From assembly GCF_012848475.1 (NCBI RefSeq), contig NZ_CP051666.1, positions 333,501 to 397,500 of the forward strand: a stretch of 64,000 nt of DNA, written 5' to 3'. Made by a program: the position numbers and the translations under genes. Positions 42,551-55,845 of the stretch are shown one piece after another. This DNA is from Marinobacterium sp. LSUCC0821 (GTDB taxonomy: Bacteria > Pseudomonadota > Gammaproteobacteria > Pseudomonadales > Balneatricaceae). Positions within the stretch are counted from its first letter, which is position 1, and the number at the start of each line of letters is the position of its first letter. Below the pieces are notes generated by a model. The model was given only the letters and a program-made list of their open reading frames with translations. It made no database searches and had not been told where the DNA came from.

Positions 42551-44356
42551 TTACTCGGATTCCTGTTGAAGCTGCCACATCGTTTTGTAGCGGCCATTCT
42601 TAGCCAAGAGCTGTTGGTGCGTGCCCTGTTCAACTATCTCACCGTGATCCATCACTAGAATTTGATTCGCATCGATAATCGTTGAGAGACGGTGTGCAAT
42701 CACTAGACTAGTGTGCCCCTCTGTAAGGGTATCGAACGAGCGAAGAATAGACTTCTCAGTGGCACTATCAAGTGCGGAGGTTGCTTCATCAAACAGCAGG
42801 ATAGGGGGCTTCTTCAAAATTACACGTGCGATTGCAATGCGCTGTTTCTCACCACCAGAGACCTTCAAACCACGCTCACCCACTTTGGTGTTCTCTTTCT
42901 CAGGCAATGAGTCAATAAACTTATCGAGGTTGGCCAGACGAATCGCCTCTTCAACTTCTGCACGACTCGCTTCAGGGCGACCATAGGCTACGTTGTTGTA
43001 GATGGAGTCGTTAAATAGCACCGTGTCTTGTGGCACTACGCCAATGGCTTGTCGAAGTGATAGCTGTGAAACCTGATCGATCGGTTGCCCATCAATTAGA
43101 ATCTGGCCGCTACCCACATCATAAAAACGGAATAGAAGCCTGGCGATGGTCGACTTGCCAGAACCACTCGCGCCCACAATCGCAACCTTTTCCCCTGCGG
43201 CCACTTTAAAGCTGAGGTTTTTAAGGATAGGGCGCTCGCTATGGTATGCAAAGTTGATATCTTTAAACTCAATTTCACCTTTTTGAACCGAAAGGTTTTG
43301 TGCATCTTTTACATCAGAAACCTTCGGCTGCTTTTTCAAAAGGGCGAACATGTTCTCAATATCAGTAAGGGCGCGGCGCACTTCACGGTAGACCATGCCT
43401 AAGAAGTTGAGAGGCAGGAATAGCTGTAAGATGTAGGCATTAATCATGACTAGAGAGCCGATAGTCATATTGCCATTCACTACATCCTGCGCAGCCATCC
43501 ACAGTAGTGCCACCATCCCGAAGGCGATGATCAGTGCCTGACCACTGTTGAGTAGCATCAGTGTCATACGGGTTTTTAGACGCGAGGTCTCCCATTGAGC
43601 TAGGTTGTTGTCGTACTGGCCCGCTTCGTGCTCTTCGTTGTTAAAGTACTTTACGGTCTCGTAGTTCAAGAGACTGTCGATGGCACGCGTATTGGTCTGC
43701 GAGTCGAGTTGATTCATCTCACGTACAAAACGGTTACGCCACTCTGTAGTGACAACGGTGAAGTAGATATATATCCCAACGCTGACCAAAATGATCAACG
43801 CGTAATAGACGCTAAAGTTGATCAGAAGAATGGCTGCCACCATGCCAAGCTCTATCAGGGTTGGCACAATGTTGAACACCATCATGCGCATTAGGAAGCC
43901 AAAACCGTTACCACCTCGATCGATATCGCGCGAGATGCCGCCTGTCTGCCGTGATAGATGGAACTCCAGCTCCAGTGAGTGAAGATGTCTAAACACCCGC
44001 AACACCATCTGCCGCATCGCCCGTTCGGTTATGCGGCTAAATACCGCATCACGCGCTTCGCTAAAAAAGACAGAGCCAAAGCGGAGCAGGCCATAGAAGA
44101 TCAGCATCAAAATAGGCACTGCAATGATTATGTGCTGTGTCTTATCTAGGCCATCAACAATCTGCTTTAAAACCCATGGCATCGTCACCGTCGCCACCTT
44201 GGCAAGCACCAATAGAACAAAGGCAAAACCCATGCGAGCCCGGTACGCCCAGAGATAGGGCCAGATCGTTTTTAATACATTAAGGGCATCGTTCAAACCA
44301 ACAGGTTCTTTATCTGGGCCAGAGCTACGACGACTGTTATGGGCGCTTCGGGACAC
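42551..44356 (-). CDS. ATM1/HMT1-type ABC exporter (permease-ATPase fusion)
   Basis: About 601 residues from GTG 44356; an upstream TTG at 44389 would add 11. Six-helix membrane domain (about 30-315) and C-terminal ATPase with Walker A VGASGSGKSTIARLLF, signature VSGGEKQRIAIAR, Walker B ILLFDEATSALD and switch His. The NxxALN/WPYLW start and the SLLNYETVKYFNNEEHEA block are typical of the mitochondrial Atm1/heavy-metal group, which exports glutathione or metal conjugates. Substrate here is inferred, not shown. Confidence 0.92.
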   Translation of the reverse strand: MSRSAHNSRRSSGPDKEPVGLNDALNVLKTIWPYLWAYRARMGFAFVLLVLAKVATVTMPWVLKQIVDGLDKTQHIIIAVPILMLIFYGLLRFGSVFFSEARDAVFSRITERAMRQMVLRVFRHLHSLELEFHLSRQTGGISRDIDRGGNGFGFLMRMMVFNIVPTLIELGMVAAILLINFSVYYALIILVSVGIYIYFTVVTTEWRNRFVREMNQLDSQTNTRAIDSLLNYETVKYFNNEEHEAGQYDNNLAQWETSRLKTRMTLMLLNSGQALIIAFGMVALLWMAAQDVVNGNMTIGSLVMINAYILQLFLPLNFLGMVYREVRRALTDIENMFALLKKQPKVSDVKDAQNLSVQKGEIEFKDINFAYHSERPILKNLSFKVAAGEKVAIVGASGSGKSTIARLLFRFYDVGSGQILIDGQPIDQVSQLSLRQAIGVVPQDTVLFNDSIYNNVAYGRPEASRAEVEEAIRLANLDKFIDSLPEKENTKVGERGLKVSGGEKQRIAIARVILKKPPILLFDEATSALDSATEKSILRSFDTLTEGHTSLVIAHRLSTIIDANQILVMDHGEIVEQGTHQQLLAKNGRYKTMWQLQQESE

Positions 44357-44466
44357 AATTAAATTCCAATAGAAAATTGCAGTTTGCAAAGCTTATCAGA
44401 TGTTGTGCTAAGGGGAGGTTTTTAATGGTTCAGAAAGGCTTAAGAATGGTTTGTTAGTATAAAAAT

Positions 44467-45252
44467 ATGAAGAAAAAGCCACTTAAATTAATTGCTCTTA
44501 CTCTTGGTCTGCTCCTAGCTGCAAATGCTCAGGCAACGATCTATGAGCACCGTCAGTATTTCACCGGTGATATGACAGCTAACCAGGCCTGTGATGCCGC
44601 TGAGCGCGAAGTTCGTCGCTTAGCTCTTTCGGCTCAGTTGGGAGAGATTATTCAGAGTAGTAGTTTTCAGCAGTGCCTTGCCCAGGGGGATGAGGCGGGG
44701 CGCTGCTCGACACAGACGGACCTCTACGCACAGACGCCCAATGGATTCGTGAAGCGATTTGACCTTGTAAGTAAAGAGCTTGCTGTAACAAACCTTGGCC
44801 AGCTCTGTTTGGTTAAAGCGGATGTTGAGGTGGTTGCATTTAATGGCCAGCCAGATCCAAACTTTAAACTGATTGCCGATATCATTCCGGGATCTATTAT
44901 TCGCGACCAAGAGGAGATCTCATTGAAGATCTCTAAACCCAATGGCAGTTGGCTATATATCTTTGCAGGGCGCCCTCTAAAGAGCTTTTCACTGCTCGTG
45001 GATGGGGAGTCGCATCTGAATGCATTGAGTGAATTTACCTACCCGGGGGATCTCTCTTCGGTACGCTGGATTGTTGAGAGTGCACTCTCTATCCAGAATG
45101 AGGAGCGACTTTGGGTAATTGCATCTCGCGAGCCGATCCAATTTCCATCAGAGTTGACCGAAAACCAACTCTTTGAACAGTTAAATCGAGCGGAGCGCTC
45201 GAGCTGGGATGCAGCGCCTGTGTCCTACACCATTTTACCGACCGAGAACTAG
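44467..45252 (+). CDS. Exported protein with DUF4384-like C-terminal domain
   Basis: 261 residues with a Sec signal peptide cleaved near ANAQA-TI. The N-terminal half has five or so cysteines and a repeat-like AEREVRRLALSAQLGE. From about 135 the pattern ADIIPGSIIRDQEEISLKIS followed by WLYIFAG and a later LWVIASREPI resembles DUF4384, often found with caspase-like and LPP20 proteins. I do not recognise the N-terminal half. First gene of a seven-gene block; ten bases separate it from the next. Confidence 0.72.
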   Translation: MKKKPLKLIALTLGLLLAANAQATIYEHRQYFTGDMTANQACDAAEREVRRLALSAQLGEIIQSSSFQQCLAQGDEAGRCSTQTDLYAQTPNGFVKRFDLVSKELAVTNLGQLCLVKADVEVVAFNGQPDPNFKLIADIIPGSIIRDQEEISLKISKPNGSWLYIFAGRPLKSFSLLVDGESHLNALSEFTYPGDLSSVRWIVESALSIQNEERLWVIASREPIQFPSELTENQLFEQLNRAERSSWDAAPVSYTILPTEN

Positions 45253-45262
45253 GAGACTCACT

Positions 45263-45937
45263 ATGCGTCGTATCATTATTGCATCTACTGTTGCTGCTCT
45301 TTTAGCAGGGTGTTCATCAACACCTAAGCCAGGCACACCAGAAGCAGTCGCCTATGCTGAAGAGAAGCGTACTGAGACACTCACTGAAGCCGTTGAGCAG
45401 GGTATTGATAGCTTGCCTGACTGGTGTATGGAAGTGCCGCGTGAGGATTATGCGATCTTTGCCTGTGGTATCGGTGCATCGCAAGATATCAACATGTCTC
45501 GCACCCGAGCAGAACTTGAGGCGAAACGTCAGCTAGCTGACCGCATTGCGGGCACAGTAAGTTCACAGATCAAGCAGTTCCAAGAGTCTGTAGGTCAGGG
45601 TCTCAATGAACAAGTGGTTGAACAGATCTCAGTGGTAACCAAATCGTTAGCGACTGATGTTGATCTGACAGGCTACGTCACCAAAGAGATGGAGATTCAG
45701 GCACAGGGGCCACGTTACATGACCTATGTGCTTTTGGAGTACCCAATCGGTGAGGTGAATAAGTTGGTTGTCGATAAGGTGCGTAAAAACGAGGTGTTAA
45801 ATACCCGCATCGCAGCAACTGAGGCCTTTGCCGAGTTGGAGCGTGAAATTCAAGCTGCGCGCAAAGCTAAAACGGGTTCATCAACAACCAAGGTGTTCAC
45901 TGTCGATAACCCTGCTGAGCAGCTCTCGAATCAGTAA
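45263..45937 (+). CDS. LPP20-family lipoprotein
   Basis: 224 residues. Lipobox LLAGC (Cys17-18 region), then an LPP20-like domain (about 50-200) with DWCMEVPREDYAIFACGIG, RTRAELEAKRQLADRIAGTV and AQGPRYMTYVLLEYPIGEVN. ATG 45263 with AGGAG eight bases upstream is preferred over the in-frame ATG at 45209, which lies inside the previous gene. LPP20 proteins are outer-membrane lipoproteins of unclear function. Confidence 0.85.
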   Translation: MRRIIIASTVAALLAGCSSTPKPGTPEAVAYAEEKRTETLTEAVEQGIDSLPDWCMEVPREDYAIFACGIGASQDINMSRTRAELEAKRQLADRIAGTVSSQIKQFQESVGQGLNEQVVEQISVVTKSLATDVDLTGYVTKEMEIQAQGPRYMTYVLLEYPIGEVNKLVVDKVRKNEVLNTRIAATEAFAELEREIQAARKAKTGSSTTKVFTVDNPAEQLSNQ

Positions 45938-45951
45938 AAGCTGGGTGGCTT

Positions 45952-47400
45952 ATGAAACGAATACTCTTAACAGCACTAGTTTCAATCGCTCCTGCAACGG
46001 AGGCCTTAGCTATGAGCAAGGTCTCTGCATTTATTGATGATTGTGTTCTTCAAGGTCAGCAGACAGAGGTGAGTAGAGTTCTGACGCCTTTCTCCTCAAA
46101 GGTGGCAGCCAATATTATCGCCTTCACGCGTAAGCAGCTTGATGGGGATTTGACCCCTGACGCCTGTCTTTTTGCACTTCGTGGTAATGCCGATCGACTT
46201 TCGCGCATGGTGACAAGTTCACAGCCCAGTTCTATAACGCCTATCGCGCGAACGCAGATAACCACAAACTCTAATACTTCGATTTCTAAAGTTAATTCTA
46301 CTTCGACTACTCCAGCCATCCCAGTGACGCCTATTAGCCCATTTGCTGATCCTAAATCGGACTACTTTGAGAGTGCGTTTGAGACAGTTCGCGTGGATGT
46401 CGACGGAATAGAAGCACTCTTTAGCGGCAGAGTGCCATCGGACATCACCACTGTACGGTTAAACCGCCAGGCAGTGGCCATTCGTGCCGATGGCTCTTGG
46501 CAGCACCGTGCCTACCTTCCGGAAGCTGGATTGAGTGTTGATCTAGAGATGATTGATCGAGCGGGCGCTATGAATGGTCGAGCATTCAATATCACCCGTG
46601 GTAACTTCACACTAAGTGGTGGAGTTGAGCCAATTGAGCCGAAACTCCACGATCGAAGCCTGGGTGTCGATAGGGTTGCGGTGATTATCGGTGTCGATGG
46701 CTATCGCTCACTGCCTAACGCTGCATATGCAGAGGCTGATGCCTTATCTGCCTACAAGATGTTTACACGAACCCTAAATATCCCTGCAGCTAATGTTAAA
46801 GATCTGATCGGCACTAACGCCAATGAGGTCAATATCAAGTTGGCTTTTCGTCAGTGGCTAGCAAGCCGTGTCGTTGCAGGTAAAACCGAGCTCTATATCT
46901 TCTATGCCGGCCACGGATTAACAGACGGGCAGGGCGAGAAACGCTATTGGATGCCTTACGATGGACACTCGCAACTTCTTGATGATACAGCGATCGCGTT
47001 CAATGATGTGATGGAGACGGTGAATCGTTTCTCACCAGCCAAAACATTTGTCATTGCCGATAGCTGTTACTCAGGTGCTTCTCGTACTGAGGTCGCATTA
47101 ACTGCACAGCGTCCTATTCGAGTGGTTAAAAAGCTCGATGCTTTACCAGAAAATACCTACCTATTTGCAGCAACTCAGCCAGATCAAACGGCACTTCCAT
47201 ATTCTGAAGCACAGCACGGCCTTTTTAGTTACTGGTGGTTGAAAGGGCTGGAAGGTGATGCAGATCTAAATGGTGATCGTCAAATTTCTGCTGGCGAACT
47301 CAACCGTTTCACACGTGATCGAGTTTCTCGCCAGTCGGGTGGCTTACAGGTTCCTGAGTTTTCCGGTAACCCCGAAACAGTGGTGTTGGCATGGGATTAA
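45952..47400 (+). CDS. Exported caspase-like (peptidase C14) protein
   Basis: 482 residues. N-terminal signal peptide (cleavage near EALA-MS), Ser/Thr-rich linker (about 89-128), a small beta domain (about 140-220), and a caspase-fold domain (about 238-480). The catalytic dyad is complete: His321 in FYAGHGLTDGQG and Cys372 in FVIADSCYSGAS. DADLNGDRQISAGE (about 437-450) looks like a calcium-binding loop near the C-terminus. An exported caspase is unusual since many bacterial ones are cytoplasmic. The last ten bases overlap the next gene. Confidence 0.88.
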   Translation: MKRILLTALVSIAPATEALAMSKVSAFIDDCVLQGQQTEVSRVLTPFSSKVAANIIAFTRKQLDGDLTPDACLFALRGNADRLSRMVTSSQPSSITPIARTQITTNSNTSISKVNSTSTTPAIPVTPISPFADPKSDYFESAFETVRVDVDGIEALFSGRVPSDITTVRLNRQAVAIRADGSWQHRAYLPEAGLSVDLEMIDRAGAMNGRAFNITRGNFTLSGGVEPIEPKLHDRSLGVDRVAVIIGVDGYRSLPNAAYAEADALSAYKMFTRTLNIPAANVKDLIGTNANEVNIKLAFRQWLASRVVAGKTELYIFYAGHGLTDGQGEKRYWMPYDGHSQLLDDTAIAFNDVMETVNRFSPAKTFVIADSCYSGASRTEVALTAQRPIRVVKKLDALPENTYLFAATQPDQTALPYSEAQHGLFSYWWLKGLEGDADLNGDRQISAGELNRFTRDRVSRQSGGLQVPEFSGNPETVVLAWD

Positions 47401-48494
47401 GAGAGCTCACTATACTTGGTCTGACGCTGACTATTACCGGATGTCAGACGCTTGATGTGGTTAAGCATCAAGAGCCTGAGTTGGGTGAGTTACAGGAGAA
47501 GAGTGTCGATTTCTGGTTAGATCCAAATTTCGTGCCGGATTCGTTGGAGTGTATTGCTGTTTACCCAACAGAGGCGGGTGATACAGCTGTAAAAGCCGAA
47601 GAGCTTACGCAAACTCATAGCATTCTGGTATCGCAAATTGCCCCTTATAATTACCGCGATGTGATTGTTCGTCGTGACCAAACAACTAAAGCTCTTGAAA
47701 ACTGCCGAGGTCGAGTGAAATCGACTTTGCGCGAAGTGTCGGGTACCAACGTTGCGGTCTTTAGTGAGAAGAAGCGTGCACTCGAGATCCAGTTAACGGT
47801 AGATGGCAAAGAGGTGTGGCATGTGCAGCATCGGTTTGTCGCACGTGCTGGTTCTCTACCTACCAATCCACTCTCCTTGATAGTTGGAATTTACGAGGCG
47901 CAGCTCAACCTTAGCGAAGAGAATGTCTATGTTCACAACACTAAGCTTATTCGCCGCATGGTCGCAACCCTACCAGATCGCTCTGTCATCGATAACACCC
48001 AAATAACTAAACAGAGTCGAGTAGATTATGACCTGCTTTTAGATGCCGCAAGATACAGCGAAGTCGTTGATTTGTTGGCCACTCAAGCGCAGTTATCACC
48101 TTCAGAAAACTGGGTGCTAGGGCGTGCATATTTGGGCTTAAACAGTGACGAGCTGGCGCTGAATCAATTCATGGAGACGCTTCTCTATGAACCTAATTCT
48201 GCAAAAGCCTGGCTTGGTGTTGGACTAGCTAAGGGGCGATTAGGTCAGCTATCACATGCTTTTGCCGCATACGATAAAGCCCTAACGATTGATGAGCAGA
48301 GTTTTGTTGGGCACTTTGAACTCGGTGTGCTGCTACATCAGATCGATAACCCAGAAAGTGCTAACCACCTCAAACGTGCCGGATTGCTCGCAACGCAGAG
48401 TGATAACTTGGCACTAGCGAGCCGAGCGTTGTACGCTATCTCAAGCCAAGCACCCATGGCGCTTTCTAATGAGGAGTTGAACAGTGTCTTCTAA
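47391..48494 (+). CDS. TPR lipoprotein with LpoB/GNA1162-like N-terminal region
   Basis: 367 residues with lipobox ITGC (Cys18). The region 55-190 (CIAVYPTEAGDTAVKAEELT and APYNYRDVIVRRDQTTKALE) recalls lipoproteins of the LpoB/CsgG-like group, but this is only a resemblance. Residues about 225-330 form TPR helices (NWVLGRAYLGLNSDELALNQ, AWLGVGLAKGRLGQLSHAF). Likely an outer-membrane scaffold. Starts 10 bases inside the caspase gene and overlaps the next by 11. Confidence 0.78.
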   Translation: MGLRELTILGLTLTITGCQTLDVVKHQEPELGELQEKSVDFWLDPNFVPDSLECIAVYPTEAGDTAVKAEELTQTHSILVSQIAPYNYRDVIVRRDQTTKALENCRGRVKSTLREVSGTNVAVFSEKKRALEIQLTVDGKEVWHVQHRFVARAGSLPTNPLSLIVGIYEAQLNLSEENVYVHNTKLIRRMVATLPDRSVIDNTQITKQSRVDYDLLLDAARYSEVVDLLATQAQLSPSENWVLGRAYLGLNSDELALNQFMETLLYEPNSAKAWLGVGLAKGRLGQLSHAFAAYDKALTIDEQSFVGHFELGVLLHQIDNPESANHLKRAGLLATQSDNLALASRALYAISSQAPMALSNEELNSVF

Positions 48495-48954
48495 ACTCAC
48501 AATCTATAGCTTGCTAGCGATTCTCCTGCTGCCTCTGCCAAGTATGGGGGATGATGATGGGCATTCGGATTCACACTCATCCGATTCGGACTCTTCCAGC
48601 TCATCTAACAGCTCTTCAAGTAGTTCATCTAGCGGCTCGTCGGGTGGTTCTAGTAGTGGTTCAAGTAGCGGCTCCTCTCAAGATAGCCGCCATTTCTTAG
48701 AGCAACAGGCCTCTAAAGTGGATCGCTCACCTAGCTATCGAAAAGAGTTTTCAGCAAGTCAGCTTTCACAGATTAAAACCCTGAGGGCTATCTACCTAAC
48801 AGATCAAAAGAAGAAACCGTTGTTCAGCTTTGAGGTGAATGAACGAAATCGTGAAGAGGCTGTGGTCGCTATCTCTAATGAGCTTGAATCCCAGGGTTTC
48901 ACCGCTGTCGCTGCTGGTGACGTGCAATCAACGATCCTAGAGCAGTTGAATTAA
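48484..48954 (+). CDS. Exported Ser/Gly-rich protein
   Basis: 156 residues, GTG start at 48484 overlapping the TPR gene. Signal peptide to about PSMG, then an Asp/His/Ser stretch and a pure Ser/Gly tract (about 34-66), then a folded part (about 70-156) with SQLSQIKTLRAIYLTDQKKK and EEAVVAISNELESQGF. I do not recognise the family. The Ser tract may be a flexible, exposed linker. No catalytic motif. Confidence 0.8.
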   Translation: MSSKLTIYSLLAILLLPLPSMGDDDGHSDSHSSDSDSSSSSNSSSSSSSSGSSGGSSSGSSSGSSQDSRHFLEQQASKVDRSPSYRKEFSASQLSQIKTLRAIYLTDQKKKPLFSFEVNERNREEAVVAISNELESQGFTAVAAGDVQSTILEQLN

Positions 48955-48963
48955 GGGGCGATC

Positions 48964-49257
48964 ATGTTACGAATTTCACTAATTCTAATCTCGCTGTTGA
49001 TGGTTGGTTGTAGCTCTTTGGGTACACAGTTAACCCAGCAGAAAATGGCCGAGATACAGTTGCCGCTGACTACGCTCGATGACGGCGTTAAATTTACCTG
49101 GGGAATAGATCCAACAACGCGAGGTGAGGTAACACTCGTGCGCACCTTCGCAAAGGACGGGCAGGTATGTCGTCTTGTAGAAGAGCAAGAGATGATTAAT
49201 GGAAAGCAGGGTAAAGCGGTATCAACCTATTGTATGCACGATGGTGAGTGGAAATAA
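48964..49257 (+). CDS. Small lipoprotein (surface-antigen-like)
   Basis: 97 residues with lipobox MVGC (Cys16). The C-terminal half (DGQVCRLVEEQEMINGKQGK ... YCMHDGEWK) has the pattern of the 17 kDa surface-antigen C-terminal domain, where two Cys and a final DGxW recur. Function unknown. Nine bases after the Ser-rich gene. Confidence 0.75.
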   Translation: MLRISLILISLLMVGCSSLGTQLTQQKMAEIQLPLTTLDDGVKFTWGIDPTTRGEVTLVRTFAKDGQVCRLVEEQEMINGKQGKAVSTYCMHDGEWK

Positions 49258-49261
49258 CAGC

Positions 49262-49786
49262 ATGAAGTTCTCTCTTCTAAGTCTGGTGTTACTGGTATCA
49301 GCGCAGAGCTTTGCAGATGATATTGCCAGTGTTCCAACTGAATTGAGCTGTTCACTCTCGGGTTCCGGTTTCTCATCGGAAAGCGCTATGCAGAGTGAGA
49401 CGAGGATGATCAATCTAACCTTTCTTACTATGCCGCCACTTCGCAGTGACCTGCAGAGCTTATCGGATGCCGAACTGGCTTGTCTCTATGTCGCTGGTTG
49501 GAGAGACAGAGCCATTTATGGCGATAACTTCGCAAGTGAAAAACTCTGCTACTCAAGAGAGCAAGCCGATTCGCAAAGTGTCTATGCTTGTCAGGTGGTT
49601 GGTCATAAGCGGGAAGATGGTCGCTACGCGTTTGATAATATGGATTGTGAAAATGGCGAGTTGGATCGACTCTCCTTGAATGACCAAGGGTTGATCATTG
49701 CAAGTGACTTCGCTTCGTCTCGTGAATTTGAAAATCACAATCGTGATTTCTTTCTAGGTGCTGGGCGCTGTCAGTTAACTAAGTAG
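49262..49786 (+). CDS. Exported protein of unknown function
   Basis: 174 residues from ATG 49262; an in-frame ATG at 49199 lies inside the previous gene. Signal peptide cleaved near QSFA-DD. The mature part has six Cys, which may form disulfides, and no recognised domain. Last member of the exported-protein block, four bases after the lipoprotein. Its end overlaps the convergent kinase gene by 16 bases. Confidence 0.75.
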   Translation: MKFSLLSLVLLVSAQSFADDIASVPTELSCSLSGSGFSSESAMQSETRMINLTFLTMPPLRSDLQSLSDAELACLYVAGWRDRAIYGDNFASEKLCYSREQADSQSVYACQVVGHKREDGRYAFDNMDCENGELDRLSLNDQGLIIASDFASSREFENHNRDFFLGAGRCQLTK

Positions 49787-51150
49787 TTGCTAACAGCCAA
49801 ACGCGCGCAAAATATTCTCTTATTATTTGACTCCGTCACCATCAGGTTTAGCTCAAACCCTAAACGTTGCGCTATGGTTTTAGTGATGGATAGGCCAAGT
49901 CCGGAACCCTTAGCGCGATCAAGTTGTTGTCTTGCTCCCCGCACAAACAGCTGTTGGGTGTCTGTGTCGAGATCAAGGTCTGTCTGATTCATGATTTGGA
50001 GCTCACCCTCACGAAGATAGATCTCTAGAATAGAACCCTCGGTCCGGTATTTTAAGGCGTTCTCAATCAGGTTTTTCATCAAAATACCGAAGGCATCAAT
50101 GTCGGTACGAATTTTCGTTGAGCTATCAATGGCTATCTGATGATCAGAGGGCTGCTCTCGTAGATCCATCAAAATCAGTTGAATCACTTGAACTAGGCTC
50201 ACCTCTTCATTCGCCTCACTTTCACTAGCGTCGGCACGTGCCAGTTGCAGGAGCTTTTCAGTAACGGTCACCAGCCTGTCGACTTCACGCATTAAATGAC
50301 TCAAATCGTTTTGTATCTGACGGTTGTGCGATGCATCCATCAGTTGAGTAATCTCACCCTTCATTAACGCCAGCGGTGTACGCAGCTCATGGGCGGTGTT
50401 TGAAGCAAATTGACGCTCCCGTTCTAGTAGCTGATCTACTCGTCCTAAAAGCTCATTTAGGCGCTTATAGACAGGTTTAAGCTCAATCGGTAACTCAAAC
50501 TCTTGAAGTGGTTTTAGGCTATTAGGGTTCTGTTGTTGAATCAGGGCCGTTAGTCGGTGCAGAGGTTTAAGGCCTCGTTGAATTGAAACTGTAACTAGTA
50601 AAATCAGCAGAGGCAGCGCAACTGAGATTGGTACGAAAAATGAGAAGAGTACATCCTGAATCGCACTAAAACGTAAATCACGCCGCTCATGTATTTGTAG
50701 GATAAAGCGCCCATCCTGGGTGTGCAGGTTGAAAGCTCTTAATTCATTTGATTGAAAAAATCCCGGCTCCAAATTAGCTAAAGCGAGGTTGTCGCTTTGC
50801 TGGTGGGAGTTGATGACGGTATCGCCGGAGCGACTGTCGATTAGCCGATAAACAATATCCTCCTCATGGTCTGGTGAGGTCGCATTTCCAGAAAAGAGGC
50901 GATTTGAAAACTGAGGTTTAATGCTGGTGTTGTTGCTGATACCCCCCTGCGTGATTTGGCGACTGTAGTAGTCATCAAGTGCTAAGGGAAGAATGCGTTG
51001 TGCTGTCTCTTCTAGGGATACATCAAAGTAGCGCTCAAGTGCTGAGCCCACAGAGAGATAGGTGAGTCCAATGGCTGCGCTCCAAACCAGTAGAGTCCCA
51101 ACAATTAAACGTTGGGTAAGGTGTTTGGAGAGGCTATTAATCTTTTTCAT
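49771..51150 (-). CDS. Sensor histidine kinase (QseC/PmrB-like)
   Basis: 459 residues: helices at about 13-33 and 169-190 around a periplasmic domain of about 130 residues, HAMP, H-box with His254 (FASNTAHELRTPLALMKGE), N-box LMKNLIENALKY and G-box GSGLGLSI. Partner of the response regulator encoded immediately upstream (stop and start share a base). Its stimulus is unknown; location between the exported-protein block and the cytochrome operon suggests an envelope or redox signal. Confidence 0.9.
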   Translation of the reverse strand: MKKINSLSKHLTQRLIVGTLLVWSAAIGLTYLSVGSALERYFDVSLEETAQRILPLALDDYYSRQITQGGISNNTSIKPQFSNRLFSGNATSPDHEEDIVYRLIDSRSGDTVINSHQQSDNLALANLEPGFFQSNELRAFNLHTQDGRFILQIHERRDLRFSAIQDVLFSFFVPISVALPLLILLVTVSIQRGLKPLHRLTALIQQQNPNSLKPLQEFELPIELKPVYKRLNELLGRVDQLLERERQFASNTAHELRTPLALMKGEITQLMDASHNRQIQNDLSHLMREVDRLVTVTEKLLQLARADASESEANEEVSLVQVIQLILMDLREQPSDHQIAIDSSTKIRTDIDAFGILMKNLIENALKYRTEGSILEIYLREGELQIMNQTDLDLDTDTQQLFVRGARQQLDRAKGSGLGLSITKTIAQRLGFELNLMVTESNNKRIFCARLAVSNYLVN

Positions 51151-51809
51151 TAATCCAGATCTAATCTGTAACCTACACCGCGAATAGTGTTGATTAGCTT
51201 GCTGCCCAGCTTTTTACGGAGCCGGCTTATGTAAACCTCAACGGTGTTACTTTCGACATCACCTTTGTGGCCGTAGAGGGCTGACTCTAAAAATTTGCGT
51301 TCTAACACGCGACCGTGTGCTGCAACCATAATCTCAAGAACTTCCCACTCGCTGTAGGTCAGTTCTACCGTATTACCCCGTTTCTTGGCAATTTTTCGCT
51401 TCATATCGAGCGTGACATCACCCAGTTGGATAAGGGAGTCTGTCTCACCAACACGGCGTCGTTGCACCGCTTTGGCCCTGGCGAGCAACTCTGGAAAATC
51501 GAACGGCTTAACAAGGTAATCATCGGCGCCTAACTCCAAACCTTTGAGTCGATCTTTTAACTGATCTTTAGCCGATATAATTACAATCCCCATGTCAGGA
51601 AGGTTTTTGCGAACATAGTCGACAAGGTCCAATCCTGAGCCATCTGGTAGATTCAGATCACATAGCAACAGGTCAAAAGAGTCTGAAGTGAGCTGGGTCC
51701 GTGCTTCCGACAGGTTGAGTGCCTGTTTGCACATCATGCCATTTGAGACTAAATAACCCCGGATAAGGCCATTTAGATTTTCCTCGTCTTCAAGAACCAA
51801 TATGCGCAT
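51150..51809 (-). CDS. OmpR-family response regulator (PmrA/QseB-like)
   Basis: 219 residues: receiver with phospho-acceptor Asp51 (LLLCDLNLPDGSG) and Lys in LVKPFDFPE, then a winged-helix domain with LTYSEWEVLEIMVAAHG and SNTVEVYISRLRKKLGSKLI. PmrA/QseB-like by overall look. Divergent from the cytochrome b gene; a PmrA-type box lies in the gap. Confidence 0.92.
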   Translation of the reverse strand: MRILVLEDEENLNGLIRGYLVSNGMMCKQALNLSEARTQLTSDSFDLLLCDLNLPDGSGLDLVDYVRKNLPDMGIVIISAKDQLKDRLKGLELGADDYLVKPFDFPELLARAKAVQRRRVGETDSLIQLGDVTLDMKRKIAKKRGNTVELTYSEWEVLEIMVAAHGRVLERKFLESALYGHKGDVESNTVEVYISRLRKKLGSKLINTIRGVGYRLDLD

Positions 51810-51850
51810 TCAATTTTCCTCTTACGATTTCGCCAGTCTAACCTACTTTT

Positions 51851-51867
51851 CTTAATGAGTTCTTAAG
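51851..51867. promoter_or_regulatory. Candidate response-regulator box (PmrA/QseB type)
   Basis: CTTAAT-GAGTT-CTTAAG fits the direct repeat YTTAAK-N5-YTTAAK used by PmrA-like regulators, with 11-base spacing. It lies in the 162-base gap between the regulator and the cytochrome b gene. More TTAAG/CTTAA copies follow at 51896-51901, 51906-51910 and 51918-51922. Confidence 0.5.
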
Positions 51868-51971
51868 TTAGAAATCAGCCTTTAAAAAAACGTAACTTAA
51901 AAAAATTAAGCTTGGTTTTAAGTTACCTAGTCGAAACTTCATGTCATAGAGAAGATTGTTTGGAGGCGTTT

Positions 51972-52553
51972 ATGCCGATTATTAAAAAGAGCGTTCGAGT
52001 TTGGGACCCACTGGTTCGCGTATTTCACTGGACGCTGGTGCTGAGCTTCGCTGTAGCATGGGTCAGTGCAGACGAGTTTGATACCTTGCACTTCTGGGCA
52101 GGTTACACGATCGCCGCCTTGGTCGCATTTCGAGTTGTATGGGGCATTATCGGTACGCGCCACGCACGCTTTACCGACTTTATTTACCGTTTCAGAACTA
52201 TAAAAAGCTATCTAATCGATTTGGCAGCGTTGCGTCCTAAACACTATGTAGGGCACAACCCAGCGGGTGGTTTGATGGTGGTTATCCTACTTCTTTCTTT
52301 AGCATTACTAACCTTTACCGGCATGGCCTCTGTTGCAATTGATGGCATAGGGCCGCTTGCAGGTACCTGGGTTGAGTCAATTTCAGGGCATTGGATGGAA
52401 GATATACATGAGGCCGTTGCTAACCTAGTTCTAGCCTTTGTGCTGTTTCATATAGCCGGTGTCTTGGTGAGTAGCTTAGTCCATGGGGAAAACCTGGTTC
52501 GGGCAATGATTAATGGAAAAAAAGAGATCGAGGAGAAGAGCGATGAGAATTAA
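51972..52553 (+). CDS. Cytochrome b561-type membrane protein of the SHP-DHC cluster
   Basis: 193 residues from ATG 51972 (GGAGG upstream); an upstream in-frame start at 51912 is less likely. Four membrane helices carrying heme-ligand His in PLVRVFHWTLVLS, LHFWAGYT, and EDIHEAVANLVLAFVLFHIA. It should pass electrons between the quinone pool and the periplasmic cytochromes encoded next. Its end overlaps the SHP-like gene by 11 bases. Confidence 0.9.
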   Translation: MPIIKKSVRVWDPLVRVFHWTLVLSFAVAWVSADEFDTLHFWAGYTIAALVAFRVVWGIIGTRHARFTDFIYRFRTIKSYLIDLAALRPKHYVGHNPAGGLMVVILLLSLALLTFTGMASVAIDGIGPLAGTWVESISGHWMEDIHEAVANLVLAFVLFHIAGVLVSSLVHGENLVRAMINGKKEIEEKSDEN

Positions 52554-52929
52554 TAAATTAGCGATCGCGCTGACATGTTCACTCTTTGTCGTGGCTGCAA
52601 ATGCAACACCAGTGAGTGATCGAATGGTGGCAGCATTCGAAGCGGCCAGTGGCAAAAGTGCCGATGCTTCTGCAGGTGAAGCTTTCTGGAATCGGGATTT
52701 TAACGGTAAGAGCTGTACTACCTGTCATGGGTCTGATGTGAAACAGGTAGGCCAACATGCAAAAACCAAAAAGGCGATTGATCCTCTAGCGCCTAGCGTA
52801 AATCCGGAGCGACTTACGCAGGATCATAAGATTAATAAGTGGTTCCTAAGGAACTGTAAATGGACGCTTGGCCGCGAGTGCACCCCTGCAGAGAAAGGGG
52901 ACATCCTAATCTGGCTATCTAATCAATAA
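52543..52929 (+). CDS. SHP-like (DUF1924) c-type cytochrome
   Basis: 128 residues with signal peptide (cleavage near NATP). One heme site CTTCH (58-62). The segment FLRNCKWTLGREC (102-113) matches the region that in Rhodobacter sphaeroides SHP gives the unusual Asn heme ligand (Asn104 here) and the Cys pair (105, 113). SHP is a high-spin cytochrome that binds O2 or NO. ATG 52543 with AGGAG seven bases upstream. Fits the cytb-SHP-DHC trio seen in several proteobacteria. Confidence 0.88.
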   Translation: MRINKLAIALTCSLFVVAANATPVSDRMVAAFEAASGKSADASAGEAFWNRDFNGKSCTTCHGSDVKQVGQHAKTKKAIDPLAPSVNPERLTQDHKINKWFLRNCKWTLGRECTPAEKGDILIWLSNQ

Positions 52930-52944
52930 GAGCGAGGCAGAAAA

Positions 52945-53568
52945 ATGAAGCTTGGAATTAAAACGGTCCGTTGGATTTTGGGTACGACACTTTTAACTAG
53001 TGCCTTAGGTGTTGGAATGGTTGGCGTCGTAAATGTCGCTTCAGCAGATGAAGGTTGGAAAATCTTTGGACGTGACGATGACGACGATGAGCATGGTGAA
53101 CGTCGCAATAGTGCGTCAAAGCAGGCTGACAATTCGCCGGTACGCCAACTCTATGTTGATGAGTGTGCTGCCTGCCATATGGCCTATCCAGCAGGTTTTC
53201 TACCGGAGCGTAGTTGGCAGAAGATGATGGGTAGTCTGGATAATCACTTTGGAGAAAATGCGGAGCTGGATCCAACAACGCAACAAGCGATTACTCAGTA
53301 TCTGGTTGATAATGCGGCAGAAAACAGTTCAAATCGAAGGGCACGTAAATTTTTACGCAGTGTTTCAGATGGTGCTACACCACTGCGTATTACTGAGTTA
53401 CGTTACTTTAAACAGAAGCATGATGAGGTGCCGGATCGTATGGTGACCGGTAACCCTGATGTTGGTAGTTTCAGCCAGTGTCAGGCTTGTCATGGCGATA
53501 GAGCAGAGCAGGGCTACTTTGATGACGACTCGGTTAATATTCCGAATCACGGCCGCTGGGATCATTAA
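52945..53568 (+). CDS. Diheme cytochrome c (DHC)
   Basis: 207 residues, signal peptide cleaved near VASADE, an acidic stretch (44-50), and two CxxCH sites, CAACH (74-78) and CQACH (179-183). DHC proteins are the electron donors to SHP. The 3' end overlaps the PepSY gene by 47 bases. Confidence 0.92.
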   Translation: MKLGIKTVRWILGTTLLTSALGVGMVGVVNVASADEGWKIFGRDDDDDEHGERRNSASKQADNSPVRQLYVDECAACHMAYPAGFLPERSWQKMMGSLDNHFGENAELDPTTQQAITQYLVDNAAENSSNRRARKFLRSVSDGATPLRITELRYFKQKHDEVPDRMVTGNPDVGSFSQCQACHGDRAEQGYFDDDSVNIPNHGRWDH

Positions 53569-53842
53569 TCTCCTAGTTGCAGCAATGCCTTCTAATGCGG
53601 GAGAGAATCTCTCGCAGCGGGAGGCGCGTGAGTTGTTGGAGTCAGGTCATATCCTCTCGCTTTCTGAACTGCATGGCCGCCACGCTGAGACCTTCACGGG
53701 TAAAATTTTAGATCTAGAGTTAGAGCGTAAAGATGGCAAACTGATCTATGAGTTTGAGGTCCTTGGCAGTGACGGCGAAGTGCGTGAGTACTACATCGAT
53801 GCAGCTTCAGGTGAACTTCTTGAAGAGAAGTTAGAGGATTAA
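53522..53842 (+). CDS. PepSY-domain exported protein
   Basis: 106 residues from ATG 53522, giving a signal peptide ending near PSNAG. The PepSY repeat is seen in HILSLSELHGRHAETFTGKI and EVREYYIDAASGELLEEKLE. PepSY proteins are often inhibitors or regulatory partners and occur beside sensor kinases. The long overlap with DHC makes the start uncertain; alternatives are few. Two bases separate it from the response regulator gene. Confidence 0.8.
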   Translation: MTTRLIFRITAAGIINLLVAAMPSNAGENLSQREARELLESGHILSLSELHGRHAETFTGKILDLELERKDGKLIYEFEVLGSDGEVREYYIDAASGELLEEKLED

Positions 53843-53844
53843 GC

Positions 53845-54516
53845 ATGCGCCTACTGCTTATAGAAGATGATCTCGATCTCATTAACCAGTTGAGACCCCA
53901 ACTGCAAAAATCGGGTTTTGCGGTTGAGGTTGCGCAAGATGGTGTAGATGGCGAATTTCTTGCGCAAGAGGAGTCTTTTGACGGTATTGTTCTTGACCTT
54001 GGATTGCCTAACCGTCCTGGACTTGAGGTTCTCTCTAACCTGCGAAGTGCGGGTGTTGAGACTCCAATTGTGATTCTTACAGCACGCGACTCCTGGCAAG
54101 AGAAGGTAGATGGTCTAAAGCACGGAGCCGATGACTATCTCACCAAACCCTTCCATTTTGAGGAGCTTCAAGCCCGTCTAGAAGCCGTAATGCGCCGAAA
54201 TCAAGGGCGTGCCGACAACTCGTTGGTCTGTCAGGGCGTTAGATTAGATGTGGATACCCAACAGGCGGTTGATGCATCAGGGCAGACTATTTCACTGACC
54301 GGTAAAGAGTTTCGACTGCTGCGTTATCTCATCACACATGCAGGTAAAATCGTATCCAAGACAGAACTGAGTGAGCATGTCTATGAAGAGGAGATGCTTA
54401 AAGATAGTAATGTGATTGAGGTCTACATCAATCGTCTTCGCCAATACTTCGGGAAGGATTTTATTGAGACAAAGCGCGGTCAGGGCTATATCGTTCAGCG
54501 GGATGAGAGCAACTAA
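53845..54516 (+). CDS. OmpR-family response regulator
   Basis: 223 residues: receiver with EDD at 7-9, Asp51 (IVLDLGLPNRPG), Lys in LTKPFHFEE; C-terminal winged helix with LTGKEFRLLRYLITHAG and VIEVYINRLRQYFG. Operon with the kinase downstream (stop and start adjacent) and with the PepSY gene, so it may report on the SHP/DHC system. Confidence 0.93.
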   Translation: MRLLLIEDDLDLINQLRPQLQKSGFAVEVAQDGVDGEFLAQEESFDGIVLDLGLPNRPGLEVLSNLRSAGVETPIVILTARDSWQEKVDGLKHGADDYLTKPFHFEELQARLEAVMRRNQGRADNSLVCQGVRLDVDTQQAVDASGQTISLTGKEFRLLRYLITHAGKIVSKTELSEHVYEEEMLKDSNVIEVYINRLRQYFGKDFIETKRGQGYIVQRDESN

Positions 54517-55845
54517 ATGTTGAAACAGGGTTACTCTATAGAGGCGCAGCTACAGAGTCGTTTAACCAAACTCCTGTTTCTTCTGGCTATCCTGCTACTA
54601 GTTCCATTACATCTAACTGTTCGCTCATTTGTTGATGGCATTGTCGAACAACGCCTCGGCCATGATGCTGAGACAATTATCACCGCAGTGAGTTTGGATC
54701 CAAACAACCAGTGGCAGTTGCAACAAGAGCGCATCTCTTCCATCTATCAGCGAGTAGAGTCAGGCCACTACTTTAAACTCCAGTCAGATCAGTTTCAGGC
54801 ACTTTCGCGCTCTTTATGGGATCGCGAGTTTAACGTCTCATCACTAGCTCCTGGCATTGTTGATATTGCGGTGGTTATTAATGATGACCAGCGCTGGATG
54901 ATTCTGACCCAGGGTTTCAAAAAATCTGATGTCACATTTACCATCGCTGTTGCTGAAGATGTGACTGAGCTCTATCACAATCAATGGTTGCTTGAGCTGG
55001 TTCTGTTGTTAATCATGTTTGTCGTTTTTGGATTTGTGGTGTGGTTGCAAAGGCGAATGGTGAAATCTGGTTTTGCTAGCCTAGAGCCTGTGCGACAAGC
55101 GATTGAGAAGGGTGACATTCGCGCATCGATCCAATTTCCGGATCAGTTGCCTAAGGAGATTGCCCCCTTAGCCTTTGCGCTTAATCGTTTGTTAGCTCGC
55201 TCAGCAGCGCAAATAGAGAGATCTCGTACAGGGTTAGGTAATCTCGCTCATGAGTTGAAGAGACCTATACAGAAGTTACGTTGGCTCGCCGCTGATCTAG
55301 ATTCAAACGAAAACTCAGACAAGGTAATAGCGCTGAGTGAAGAGTTTCAACAGTTGATGGATCGTGAACTTCGCAGAGCTCGCATCTCTGGCACACCGAC
55401 TCCTGGCAAACTGTTTACTCCTGATGCTGACTTAACCCCTATGGTTGAACTCTTTAAACGCATTTACCCAGCTAAAGCGTTGCGTCTGAAACAGTTGCCG
55501 CAATCTGAACTCCCCTATGATCGAGATGATATGCTCGAGCTTATCGGCAATCTGCTTGATAACGCACTCAGGTATGCGAAGACAGAAGCTGAGGTCTCGA
55601 TCACCTTCTCAAGTGAAAACCACAGCTGGAGTCTCTCAATTGAGGATGATGGTAAAGGGGTGTCACCAGAGAATATGAGTCGTCTAGCGGAGCGGGGCGT
55701 TCGCTTAGATGAGGATTCTCCTCTGACAGGATCAGGGCTTGGTATCGCTATTAGTAAAGCGGTAGTTGAGAGTTATTCAGGGAGCATGAGTTTTAGTGAT
55801 GCATCCATCGGCGGACTTTGCGTTAAAGTCGAATTACCCATCTAA
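54517..55845 (+). CDS. Sensor histidine kinase (PhoQ/QseC-like)
   Basis: 442 residues: helices at about 19-35 and 158-178, a periplasmic loop of about 120 residues, HAMP-like region, H-box with His245 (LGNLAHELKRPIQKLRWLA) where the usual HELRTP is HELKRP, N-box LIGNLLDNALRYA and G-boxes EDDGKGVS and GSGLGIAI. Starts directly after the response regulator stop. Signal unknown. Confidence 0.92.
   Translation: MLKQGYSIEAQLQSRLTKLLFLLAILLLVPLHLTVRSFVDGIVEQRLGHDAETIITAVSLDPNNQWQLQQERISSIYQRVESGHYFKLQSDQFQALSRSLWDREFNVSSLAPGIVDIAVVINDDQRWMILTQGFKKSDVTFTIAVAEDVTELYHNQWLLELVLLLIMFVVFGFVVWLQRRMVKSGFASLEPVRQAIEKGDIRASIQFPDQLPKEIAPLAFALNRLLARSAAQIERSRTGLGNLAHELKRPIQKLRWLAADLDSNENSDKVIALSEEFQQLMDRELRRARISGTPTPGKLFTPDADLTPMVELFKRIYPAKALRLKQLPQSELPYDRDDMLELIGNLLDNALRYAKTEAEVSITFSSENHSWSLSIEDDGKGVSPENMSRLAERGVRLDEDSPLTGSGLGIAISKAVVESYSGSMSFSDASIGGLCVKVELPI

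Follow-up and report, generated by a model that had tools for sequence, protein, structure and literature searches.

What does a caspase-fold peptidase do among a set of exported lipoproteins, and which of its neighbouring genes belong with it? A stretch of 64,000 nucleotides from Marinobacterium sp. LSUCC0821 (contig NZ_CP051666.1, positions 333,501 to 397,500; hereafter the window) raises this question at positions 44467-49786, where a sequence-only reading had found seven consecutive genes for exported proteins, interpreted them as a jointly expressed set of envelope proteins and been unable to name the system. To our knowledge, most discussion of bacterial caspase homologs assumes an intracellular role. 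In agreement with that reading, a full-text literature search yielded no paper on the module, and none of the matches listed joined LPP20, DUF4384 and caspase. Judged by the gene comparisons described here, the block looks like a real, unstudied cell-envelope system.

Layout of the seven-gene block

All seven ORFs lie consecutively on the plus strand where they had been placed (Table 1), and inspection by eye agreed that every product appears to carry an export signal, with signal-peptide-like N-termini in genes 1, 3, 5 and 7 and a lipobox in genes 2, 4 and 6. A hydropathy score concurs with exported N-termini but separates poorly, with 44% of the 48 ORFs of at least 200 aa sampled over the window also reaching 2.2. 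The description of the genes as mostly overlapping did not survive relocation of two starts, that of gene 2 from 45209 to 45263 on the basis of its lipobox and that of gene 7 from 49199 to 49262 on the basis of its signal peptide. With the best starts, the six junctions measure +10, +14, -10, -11, +9 and +4 nt, so that two of the six overlap, while the spacing is still operon-like. The observation of an exported-protein block with a caspase is, in this form, partly confirmed.

The region between gene 1 and the divergent transporter gene is the sole intergenic space for a promoter of the block, and a consensus scan found no sigma-70-like site in it. Promoter and terminator scans returned fewer sites than in shuffled sequence and are therefore uninformative. 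The GC content runs through the block without a break.

Table 1. Features of the block and its flanks, in window coordinates
Feature	Position	Strand	Remark
Intergenic region, 77 nt	44390..44466	.	divergent: MsbA/ATM1-type ABC transporter gene (-) / gene 1 (+)
Gene 1, exported protein	44467..45252	+	weak SHS2-like N-terminal domain, DUF4384-type C-terminal half
Gene 2, LPP20-family lipoprotein	45263..45937	+	lipobox Cys17
Gene 3, exported caspase-fold peptidase	45952..47400	+	C14, orthocaspase type
Catalytic His321 codon	46912..46914	+	residue invariant against both relatives
Catalytic Cys372 codon	47065..47067	+	D-S-C context; residue invariant against both relatives
EF-hand-like loop, residues 438-449	47263..47298	+	C-terminal to catalytic Cys; both relatives have a similar loop
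Gene 4, lipoprotein	47391..48494	+	GNA1162-like N-terminal domain (seen via homolog), TPR repeats
Gene 5, exported protein	48484..48954	+	Ser/Gly/Asp-rich
Gene 6, small lipoprotein	48964..49257	+	like C-terminus of relatives' 17-kDa surface antigen-like lipoproteins
Gene 7, exported protein	49262..49786	+	6 Cys, orphan
Histidine kinase	49771..51150	-	QseC/PmrB-like, convergent with gene 7
Response regulator	51150..51809	-	OmpR-type, the kinase's partner
SHP operon	51912..55845	+	cytochrome b561, SHP (DUF1924), diheme cytochrome c, PepSY protein, response regulator, 442-aa ORF

An exported caspase with an intact active site

Gene 3 had been called a secreted peptidase C14 with His321 and Cys372 intact, and this was borne out. 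The protein matches Peptidase_C14 (PF00656) in Pfam at 48.1 bits (cut-off 21.4; E 1.5e-12), and both residues are found at the positions given and are invariant in an alignment of the window protein with its counterparts in two relatives. The residue two before the catalytic Cys is Asp in the window caspase and Glu in both relatives, and the EF-hand-like loop of one relative gives a weak match to Pfam EF-hand_5 (E 0.048). The generic caspase model of PADLOC also matches gene 3 (E 2.1e-8), which falls below the curated cut-off of the NCBIfam model for EACC1-associated caspases (63 bits against 140) and forms a long branch (1.7) in the tree. A PF00656 family search of the own genome recovered 0 of 1, a false negative since gene 3 scores 48 bits. 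A PDB sequence search gave no matches, a single-protein scan of viral contigs no relatives, and a phage search one weak caspase.

Orthocaspases and metacaspases are known for calcium dependence and for cleavage after Arg or Lys. With gene 3 they share the C14 fold, the His-Cys dyad, a D-x-C context and an association with DUF4384, which an excerpt of one study counts among the accessory domains of orthocaspases, with 23 cyanobacterial cases (PMC8283722); an excerpt of another mentions possible signal peptides in some prokaryotic orthocaspases and metacaspases (PMC3501461). The window differs in that its DUF4384 lies on a separate exported protein accompanied by LPP20 and TPR lipoproteins, a gene set unmentioned in those excerpts.

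The proteins encoded around the caspase

The evidence for the name DUF4384-like in gene 1 is indirect. The protein itself has no Pfam match, PF14326 included, but its homologs in the two relatives score 41.6 and 41.8 bits against PF14326 (cut-off 27), and hhalign joined its C-terminal half to a DUF4384 alignment that contained both homologs (probability 93.8, E 1.7e-7). Its N-terminal domain, compared as a low-confidence model, had a best Foldseek E of 0.2, with Tip-alpha, dodecin and Lpp20 in the top ten, and in VIA aligned with dodecin at Z 6.7 (rmsd 2.1, 62 aligned) and Lpp20 at Z 5.1 (rmsd 4.4, 80 aligned); the domain may have an SHS2 fold. The AlphaFold models have mean pLDDT values of 51.1 and 49.6, which is low confidence.

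As for gene 2, the LPP20 label lacks the backing of Pfam, where the protein scores 22.3 bits against PF02169 (cut-off 25.9), and stands through its lipobox and near full-length tblastn homology to proteins annotated as LPP20 family lipoproteins (E 4e-13, 90% covered). Against a four-row LPP20-DUF4384 alignment, hhalign gave a probability of 33 (E 4.5e-4) for the gene 2 alignment and an insignificant 1.6 for that of gene 1. The fold family of gene 2 includes FlgP and FlgT, which form outer-membrane-associated rings of flagellar motors according to an excerpt of PMC12222027. The FlgP/FlgT/FlgO rings and Helicobacter pylori Lpp20 resemble gene 2, and perhaps gene 1, in their LPP20/SHS2 fold and outer-membrane association; they differ in that the companion in the window is a protease and no flagellar motor part, and the loci read contain no flagellar genes.

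Gene 4 was rightly described as a TPR lipoprotein, with TPR repeats found by Pfam and a lipobox seen by eye; the structure-search matches of its model are owed to the TPR part. The GNA1162-like family PF05643 was matched by its homolog only, at 22.2 bits and under the cut-off of 25.9. Gene 5 has no counterpart among the relatives' proteins tested, composition aside, and no similarity beyond its low-complexity part, and the relatives' caspases themselves carry a Gly/Asp-rich stretch at the N-terminus. The surface-antigen likeness of gene 6 holds weakly: against the tail of one relative's lipoprotein none of 500 shuffles scored as high and against that of the other 12 of 500 did, phmmer gave no match, and the relatives' lipoproteins match 17kDa_Anti_2 under its cut-off. 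No relative of gene 7 was found.

Five of the seven genes recur in another genus

Counterparts of genes 1, 2, 3, 4 and 6 are present in two MAGs from a single other genus (Thiotrichales SI047_bin108 and Gammaproteobacteria co234_bin55), at loci labelled G374/L053 and G425/L056. The co-occurrence of LPP20, DUF4384, C14 and TPR lipoproteins that had been proposed as a check is thus found in both, and the five shared families comprise DUF4384, LPP20, caspase, the GNA1162-like TPR lipoprotein and the 17-kDa-antigen-like lipoprotein. A single conserved unit of all seven genes can be rejected, with counterparts for these five only. The window proteins are mostly 23-40% identical to those of the relatives and the gene order differs, so that simple recent copying among the three genomes is rejected. 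By gene content, then, genes 1, 2, 3, 4 and 6 are a conserved module and no chance neighbours.

The complete module was found in three genomes only, the window's included, and the block is lineage-specific, since genes 1-3 have no ortholog in five genus-mates. Joint expression appears likely in view of the five families occurring together in two loci of another genus, and successive overlaps of 4, 1 and 4 nt join the caspase, 17-kDa-like, DUF4384 and TPR genes of G425. The interpretation of the block as a jointly expressed set is accordingly supported in part, with genes 5 and 7 outside the conserved core.

A wider clade of exported caspases

Exported caspases paired with DUF4384 are, as far as genome neighbourhoods tell, a theme wider than the window module. 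Of 34 DUF4384 matches, 17 had a caspase no further than 6 kb away, where 0.15 would be expected; this count left out the two module relatives, used a caspase list that included the G425 locus, and had no DUF4384 match to draw on in the own genome. All 10 of 10 rows for caspases with an LPP20-, FlgO- or FlgT_N-type partner grouped in a single clade (support 98/93), and none of 500 label shuffles was as clustered, for loci picked by similarity to gene 3 or by DUF4384 nearness, with the rows of the likely group read fully and the other 16 checked by local HMMs and partly by Pfam. The ten caspases are exported, mostly with DUF4384 also present, and the clade reaches a Sulfurimonas plasmid.

Several partner labels are sub-threshold: FlgO in L072 (22.2 against 22.6 bits), FlgT_N in L068 (16.1 against 28.8) and LPP20 in L075 (17.8 against 25.9); some DUF4384 calls of the clade also fall under the Pfam cut-off. 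The genomes with FlgO and FlgT_N matches in caspase partners, both under cut-off, are G288 and G092. The L076 partner has no Pfam match and was labelled by a local HMM (E 5.6e-6), and for L012 and L075 the assignment of DUF4384 is alignment-based only. A class search with a three-row LPP20-DUF4384 alignment (A3) matched 15 of 369 genomes; only G108 and G177 had the match beside a listed caspase, suggesting that most LPP20 proteins are unlinked to caspases.

Flanking two-component and cytochrome genes

Directly to the right of the block, cytochrome b, DUF1924 (SHP), diheme cytochrome c (DHC) and regulator genes are adjacent, as in the SHP operon type described in PMC2909971; the 442-aa ORF is taken as the operon's kinase. 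All three module loci have diheme-cytochrome genes alongside, the SHP operon in G425 and DHC alone in G374, with the caspase gene divergent from a cytochrome gene at 45 and 165 nt, respectively. This known redox operon differs from the module in also occurring without the caspase module, as in genus-mate G003, where it is 84% identical, and the three DHC stretches read in module-free genomes contain no caspase. Genus-mates differ in what lies between the ABC transporter and the SHP operon.

The convergent histidine kinase gene overlaps gene 7 by 16 bases, as had been noted, and has no close ortholog in the genus-mates. A role of this pair as a conserved regulator of the block is unsupported, given that a response regulator and kinase directly follow the LPP20 gene in G374 and lie on the SHP operon side in G425. 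The two response regulators of the window are about equally similar to those of G374 and G425.

What the module may do

These gene contents most likely describe an orthocaspase module tethered to the outer membrane, in which SHS2-fold proteins act as scaffold or sensors. More fully, we assign a probability of about 0.5 to a patchy, operon-like module that would place an orthocaspase in the envelope together with SHS2-fold partners (gene 2 and probably the gene 1 N-terminus), a DUF4384 domain and a TPR lipoprotein of GNA1162-like type. The orthocaspase, with its active site intact, would by its predicted export and sorting reside either in the periplasm or on the periplasmic side of the outer membrane, where the lipoproteins may hold or scaffold it in a putative complex. 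The SHS2/DUF4384 proteins would sense the envelope condition as a presumed trigger and activate the enzyme by gathering or releasing caspase molecules, calcium may help through the EF-hand-like loop, and the protease would then cut candidate envelope or surface substrates after Arg/Lys. Expression would probably be controlled by a two-component system of the envelope and coupled to the redox neighbourhood of SHP/DHC. It is very doubtful that genes 1, 2 and 4 form an outer-membrane-associated SHS2-fold ring or disk that activates the caspase by proximity, as an apoptosome-like periplasmic platform; if they did, the LPP20-, FlgO- and FlgT-type partners of the wider clade would be variants of one platform.

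Other roles would account for some of the same evidence. The caspase might instead mature a surface protein of its own block, be it the product of gene 5 or a lipoprotein exposed at the surface, in assembly housekeeping and not under stress. All three loci have a surface-antigen-like lipoprotein and a Gly/Asp/Ser-rich chain, in gene 5 or in the relatives' caspase N-terminus, that may act as a stalk or propeptide removed by self-cleavage; yet no conserved site was picked out as a candidate for cleavage and gene 5 resembles the relatives' tested proteins in its low-complexity part alone, making this role unlikely, if conceivable. Caspase-based defences that we know of act in the cytoplasm, whereas all parts of the block appear exported, none of the six other proteins matches a PADLOC model, and the block has no recognisable pore protein or NTPase sensor. 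An effector of cell suicide or anti-phage defence that wrecks the envelope upon infection or damage is for these reasons quite improbable, despite the lineage-specific block at a site varying between genus-mates, the PADLOC caspase match and the link of caspase homologs to programmed cell death in an excerpt of PMC3501461.

Kinship of LPP20, FlgO and FlgT_N with flagellar outer-membrane ring and disk proteins, together with the sub-cut-off matches in G288 and G092, would suit a ring accessory of the flagellum or another envelope machine, with the caspase a hitchhiking assembly protease. No structural gene for a flagellum or pilus came to light at the relatives' loci or in the portion of the window that was read, and we consider such a role very improbable indeed. 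The variable ABC transporter-SHP operon site and the orphan genes 5 and 7 could also reflect a coincidental stacking of exported-protein genes without joint function. That five families stand together in two other genomes in changed order, and that partners are strongly associated with the caspase clade, makes coincidence hard to credit, and co-conservation has largely refuted it already.

A phylogenetically defined clade of exported caspases, whose envelope partners recur both among gammaproteobacteria and on a plasmid of the Campylobacterota, offers a concrete gene set for testing what triggers a bacterial caspase, what it partners with and what it cleaves. It also proposes a first context for DUF4384 and non-flagellar LPP20 proteins.

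Plasmid-borne relatives

Genes 1 and 4 matched nothing among the plasmids searched, and a search with the 313-aa lipoprotein of G374 found six Azospirillum records, matched in the surface-antigen tail only. The Sulfurimonas aquatica plasmid pSULFM1 (NZ_CP046073.1) differs from the window in having a pair only, with a PPC-type protein upstream and no GNA1162-TPR or 17-kDa-like gene recognised. Its caspase and LPP20 lipoprotein genes, so annotated, are adjacent, and the caspase belongs to the window's clade.

Composition of the caspase block

Judging by sequence, the block is a module in which an orthocaspase comes with a conserved and unusual complement of envelope proteins, and its function is at the stage of prediction. 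The seven consecutive genes described in the sequence-only reading are present, while the extent of their overlaps was corrected by new starts for genes 2 and 7, placed at lipobox or signal-peptide starts; the junctions between genes 1 to 7 then measure +10, +14, -10, -11, +9 and +4 nt.

By eye, the N-termini of all seven proteins look exported, and their hydropathy is compatible with export but discriminates weakly. Genes 2, 4 and 6 encode lipoproteins in which Ser or Gln follows the lipobox Cys. Under the +2 rule of E. coli such lipoproteins go to the outer membrane, and because of this residue the three products are predicted to be sorted there. The gene 3 product is a C14 peptidase in which His321 and Cys372 are present, and an EF-hand-like loop lies downstream of the latter (residues 438-449). 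A PF00656 family search of the own genome returned no match, though gene 3 is well above Pfam's cut-off; divergent members escape this first-look filter.

Features in and around the caspase block, with E-values of phmmer matches in the eight-protein set of L053, the module locus of genome G374
Feature	Coordinates	Strand	Description	E-value in L053
ABC transporter-SHP operon interval	42551-51985		MsbA/ATM1-type ABC transporter gene to SHP operon; content varies among genus-mates (versus loci L112-L116)	
Caspase block	44467-49786	+	Occupied by seven ORFs	
Gene 1		+	DUF4384-like protein	2.9e-8
Gene 2	start 45263	+	LPP20 lipoprotein	1.9e-41
Gene 3		+	C14 caspase	6.9e-16
Gene 4		+	TPR lipoprotein	2.3e-22
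Gene 5		+	Ser/Gly/Asp-rich protein	
Gene 6		+	Small 17-kDa-antigen-like lipoprotein	no match
Gene 7	start 49262	+	6-Cys orphan	no match
Two-component pair	49771-51809	-	Convergent with the block	
SHP operon	51912-55845		Complete, right of the block: cytochrome b561, DUF1924/SHP, diheme cytochrome c (DHC), PepSY protein, response regulator, 442-aa ORF	
PepSY ORF	53459-53842		110-nt overlap with the DHC gene, different frame	
SHP block shared with genus-mate G003	51985-55845		84% identity	
DsbB-like and DsbA-like genes (by eye)	1123-2216 of L053		Near the G374 module; upstream of a run of cytochromes and a copper-ATPase-like gene	

Conservation of the block

In a search of 57 relatives, counting the own genome, gene 1 had no match besides itself, gene 2 hit itself and a single distant sequence broken by a stop, and gene 3 matched itself and C14-type sequences in seven other genomes, every one partial. 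When 369 genomes drawn from the class were searched, gene 2 was matched in three, counting the own genome. One of these was G374, where a caspase lies about 4 kb away and the locus encodes, in this order, a caspase whose N-terminus is Gly/Asp/Ser-rich, a 313-aa lipoprotein, a DUF4384 protein, a TPR lipoprotein of GNA1162-like type and an LPP20-type lipoprotein, followed by a response regulator and a kinase. In G425, a congener of G374, the same five genes overlap or almost abut on one contig (L056), and the caspases of both relatives keep His321 and Cys372. No additional carrier of gene 2 was found among 95 genomes around G374 (2/95 matched), and when the species-genome collection was scanned with a gene 2 alignment, only the contigs of G374 and G425, both MAGs, came back. 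This co-occurrence, together with the few carriers across the scans, argues for a module that is real but rare, at least within reach of pattern-based scans. The proposal of a jointly expressed set that may form an envelope complex is supported in part, with a five-gene set conserved in both relatives and a predicted function.

Passages of PMC8283722 and PMC7475262 list DUF4384 among the accessory domains of cyanobacterial orthocaspases (19 true, 4 pseudo), and a passage of PMC6426788 does the same for a clade of alphaproteobacterial pseudo-orthocaspase proteins. For many bacterial metacaspases, parts of a 2012 survey (PMC3501461) predict helices at the N-terminus that may be signal peptides, and they analyse metacaspase operons; the survey's main text contains neither of the terms LPP20 and DUF4384. 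Among the open-licence papers listed by full-text searches, none was seen to describe the gene set of the block.

Genomic setting

The SHP operon beside the block is of the type described in part of PMC2909971, and its 442-aa ORF is taken as its kinase. A DHC gene is divergent from the module at 165 nt in G374, and the module of G425 lies 45 nt from a cytochrome b561-DHC fusion gene. DHC genes also occur without the module in genomes G003, G158 and G424, and the DHC-bearing stretches read in these three contained no caspase.

In G003, about 16 kb separate the ABC transporter from the SHP block; the genes in between include, by eye, a WYL-like regulator, AmtB/GlnK, ComM and a helicase. In the window, this interval is occupied by the caspase block together with the two-component pair that converges on it. 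The interval is a variable chromosomal site. Genus-mates lack a close ortholog of the convergent pair's kinase; its best matches there are 30-33% identical, comparable to its identity to a second kinase in its own genome. From the interval content and this kinase, the block and the pair look to have been acquired or retained together.

Proposed mechanism

Based on the architecture of the module, the caspase would be an outer-membrane-tethered orthocaspase, with its SHS2/DUF4384 partners serving as scaffold or sensor. One candidate substrate is the Ser/Gly/Asp-rich chain, which has its own gene in the window and is joined to the caspase in both relatives. According to passages of PMC12222027, the LPP20/SHS2 fold of the gene 2 family is common to dodecin, Lpp20, FlgP and FlgT; within this fold, the formation of rings is correlated with an insert that separates the helix from the second strand. 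The weak gene 1 model runs through a strand, a helix, about 34 unconfident residues and two strands, an order that fits a ring-former plan with an insert and proves nothing; Foldseek matched the model to Tip-alpha, dodecin and Lpp20 at E 0.2 or worse.

The wider caspase and DUF4384 family

DUF4384 was present in 22 of 41 chosen genomes, comprising the own genome, G425 and caspase-bearing ones from the searches of relatives and class. With both module relatives left out, 17 of 34 DUF4384 matches lay at most 6 kb from a caspase match, versus 0.15 expected at random. Partners at caspase loci were of three types: LPP20-, FlgO- or FlgT_N-type proteins, mostly with DUF4384; Ser/Thr kinase-DUF4384 and OmpA-family proteins; and a DUF4384 protein accompanied by sigma/zinc-finger-type regulators. 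When 26 caspase domains were placed in a maximum-likelihood tree, the caspases with LPP20/FlgO/FlgT_N partners formed a single clade (10 rows including the window, support 98/93), and the association of clade and partner takes one change on the tree, a value as low being reached in 0/500 shuffles. Several gammaproteobacterial families are represented in the clade, as is plasmid pSULFM1 of Sulfurimonas aquatica, on which adjacent genes carry the annotations caspase family protein and LPP20 family lipoprotein. In the window, LPP20 and DUF4384 are encoded by two genes; in four clade members the two parts appear fused.

Two further clusters recur. In gammaproteobacterial loci L061, L065, L069 and L070, a lipobox caspase accompanies a Ser/Thr kinase that ends in DUF4384, along with PP2C-like, FHA-like and CRP-like genes (by eye); L061 and L065 also have an OmpA-family gene. 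In L062, L063, L067 and L071, a caspase adjoins a small DUF4384 protein alongside sigma-factor-like and zinc-finger anti-sigma-like genes (by eye; zf-HC2 weakly in L067). LPP20-type lipoproteins also occur with no annotated caspase nearby on large plasmids of Vibrio, Shewanella, Pseudoalteromonas, Photobacterium and Salinibacter (L015, L016, L018, L019 and L020), some adjoining an uncharacterised gene of about 400-450 aa. Locus L057 of genome G077, which has no caspase, encodes several LPP20-like proteins with a CsgG/HfaB-like and a transglutaminase-like protein (by eye).
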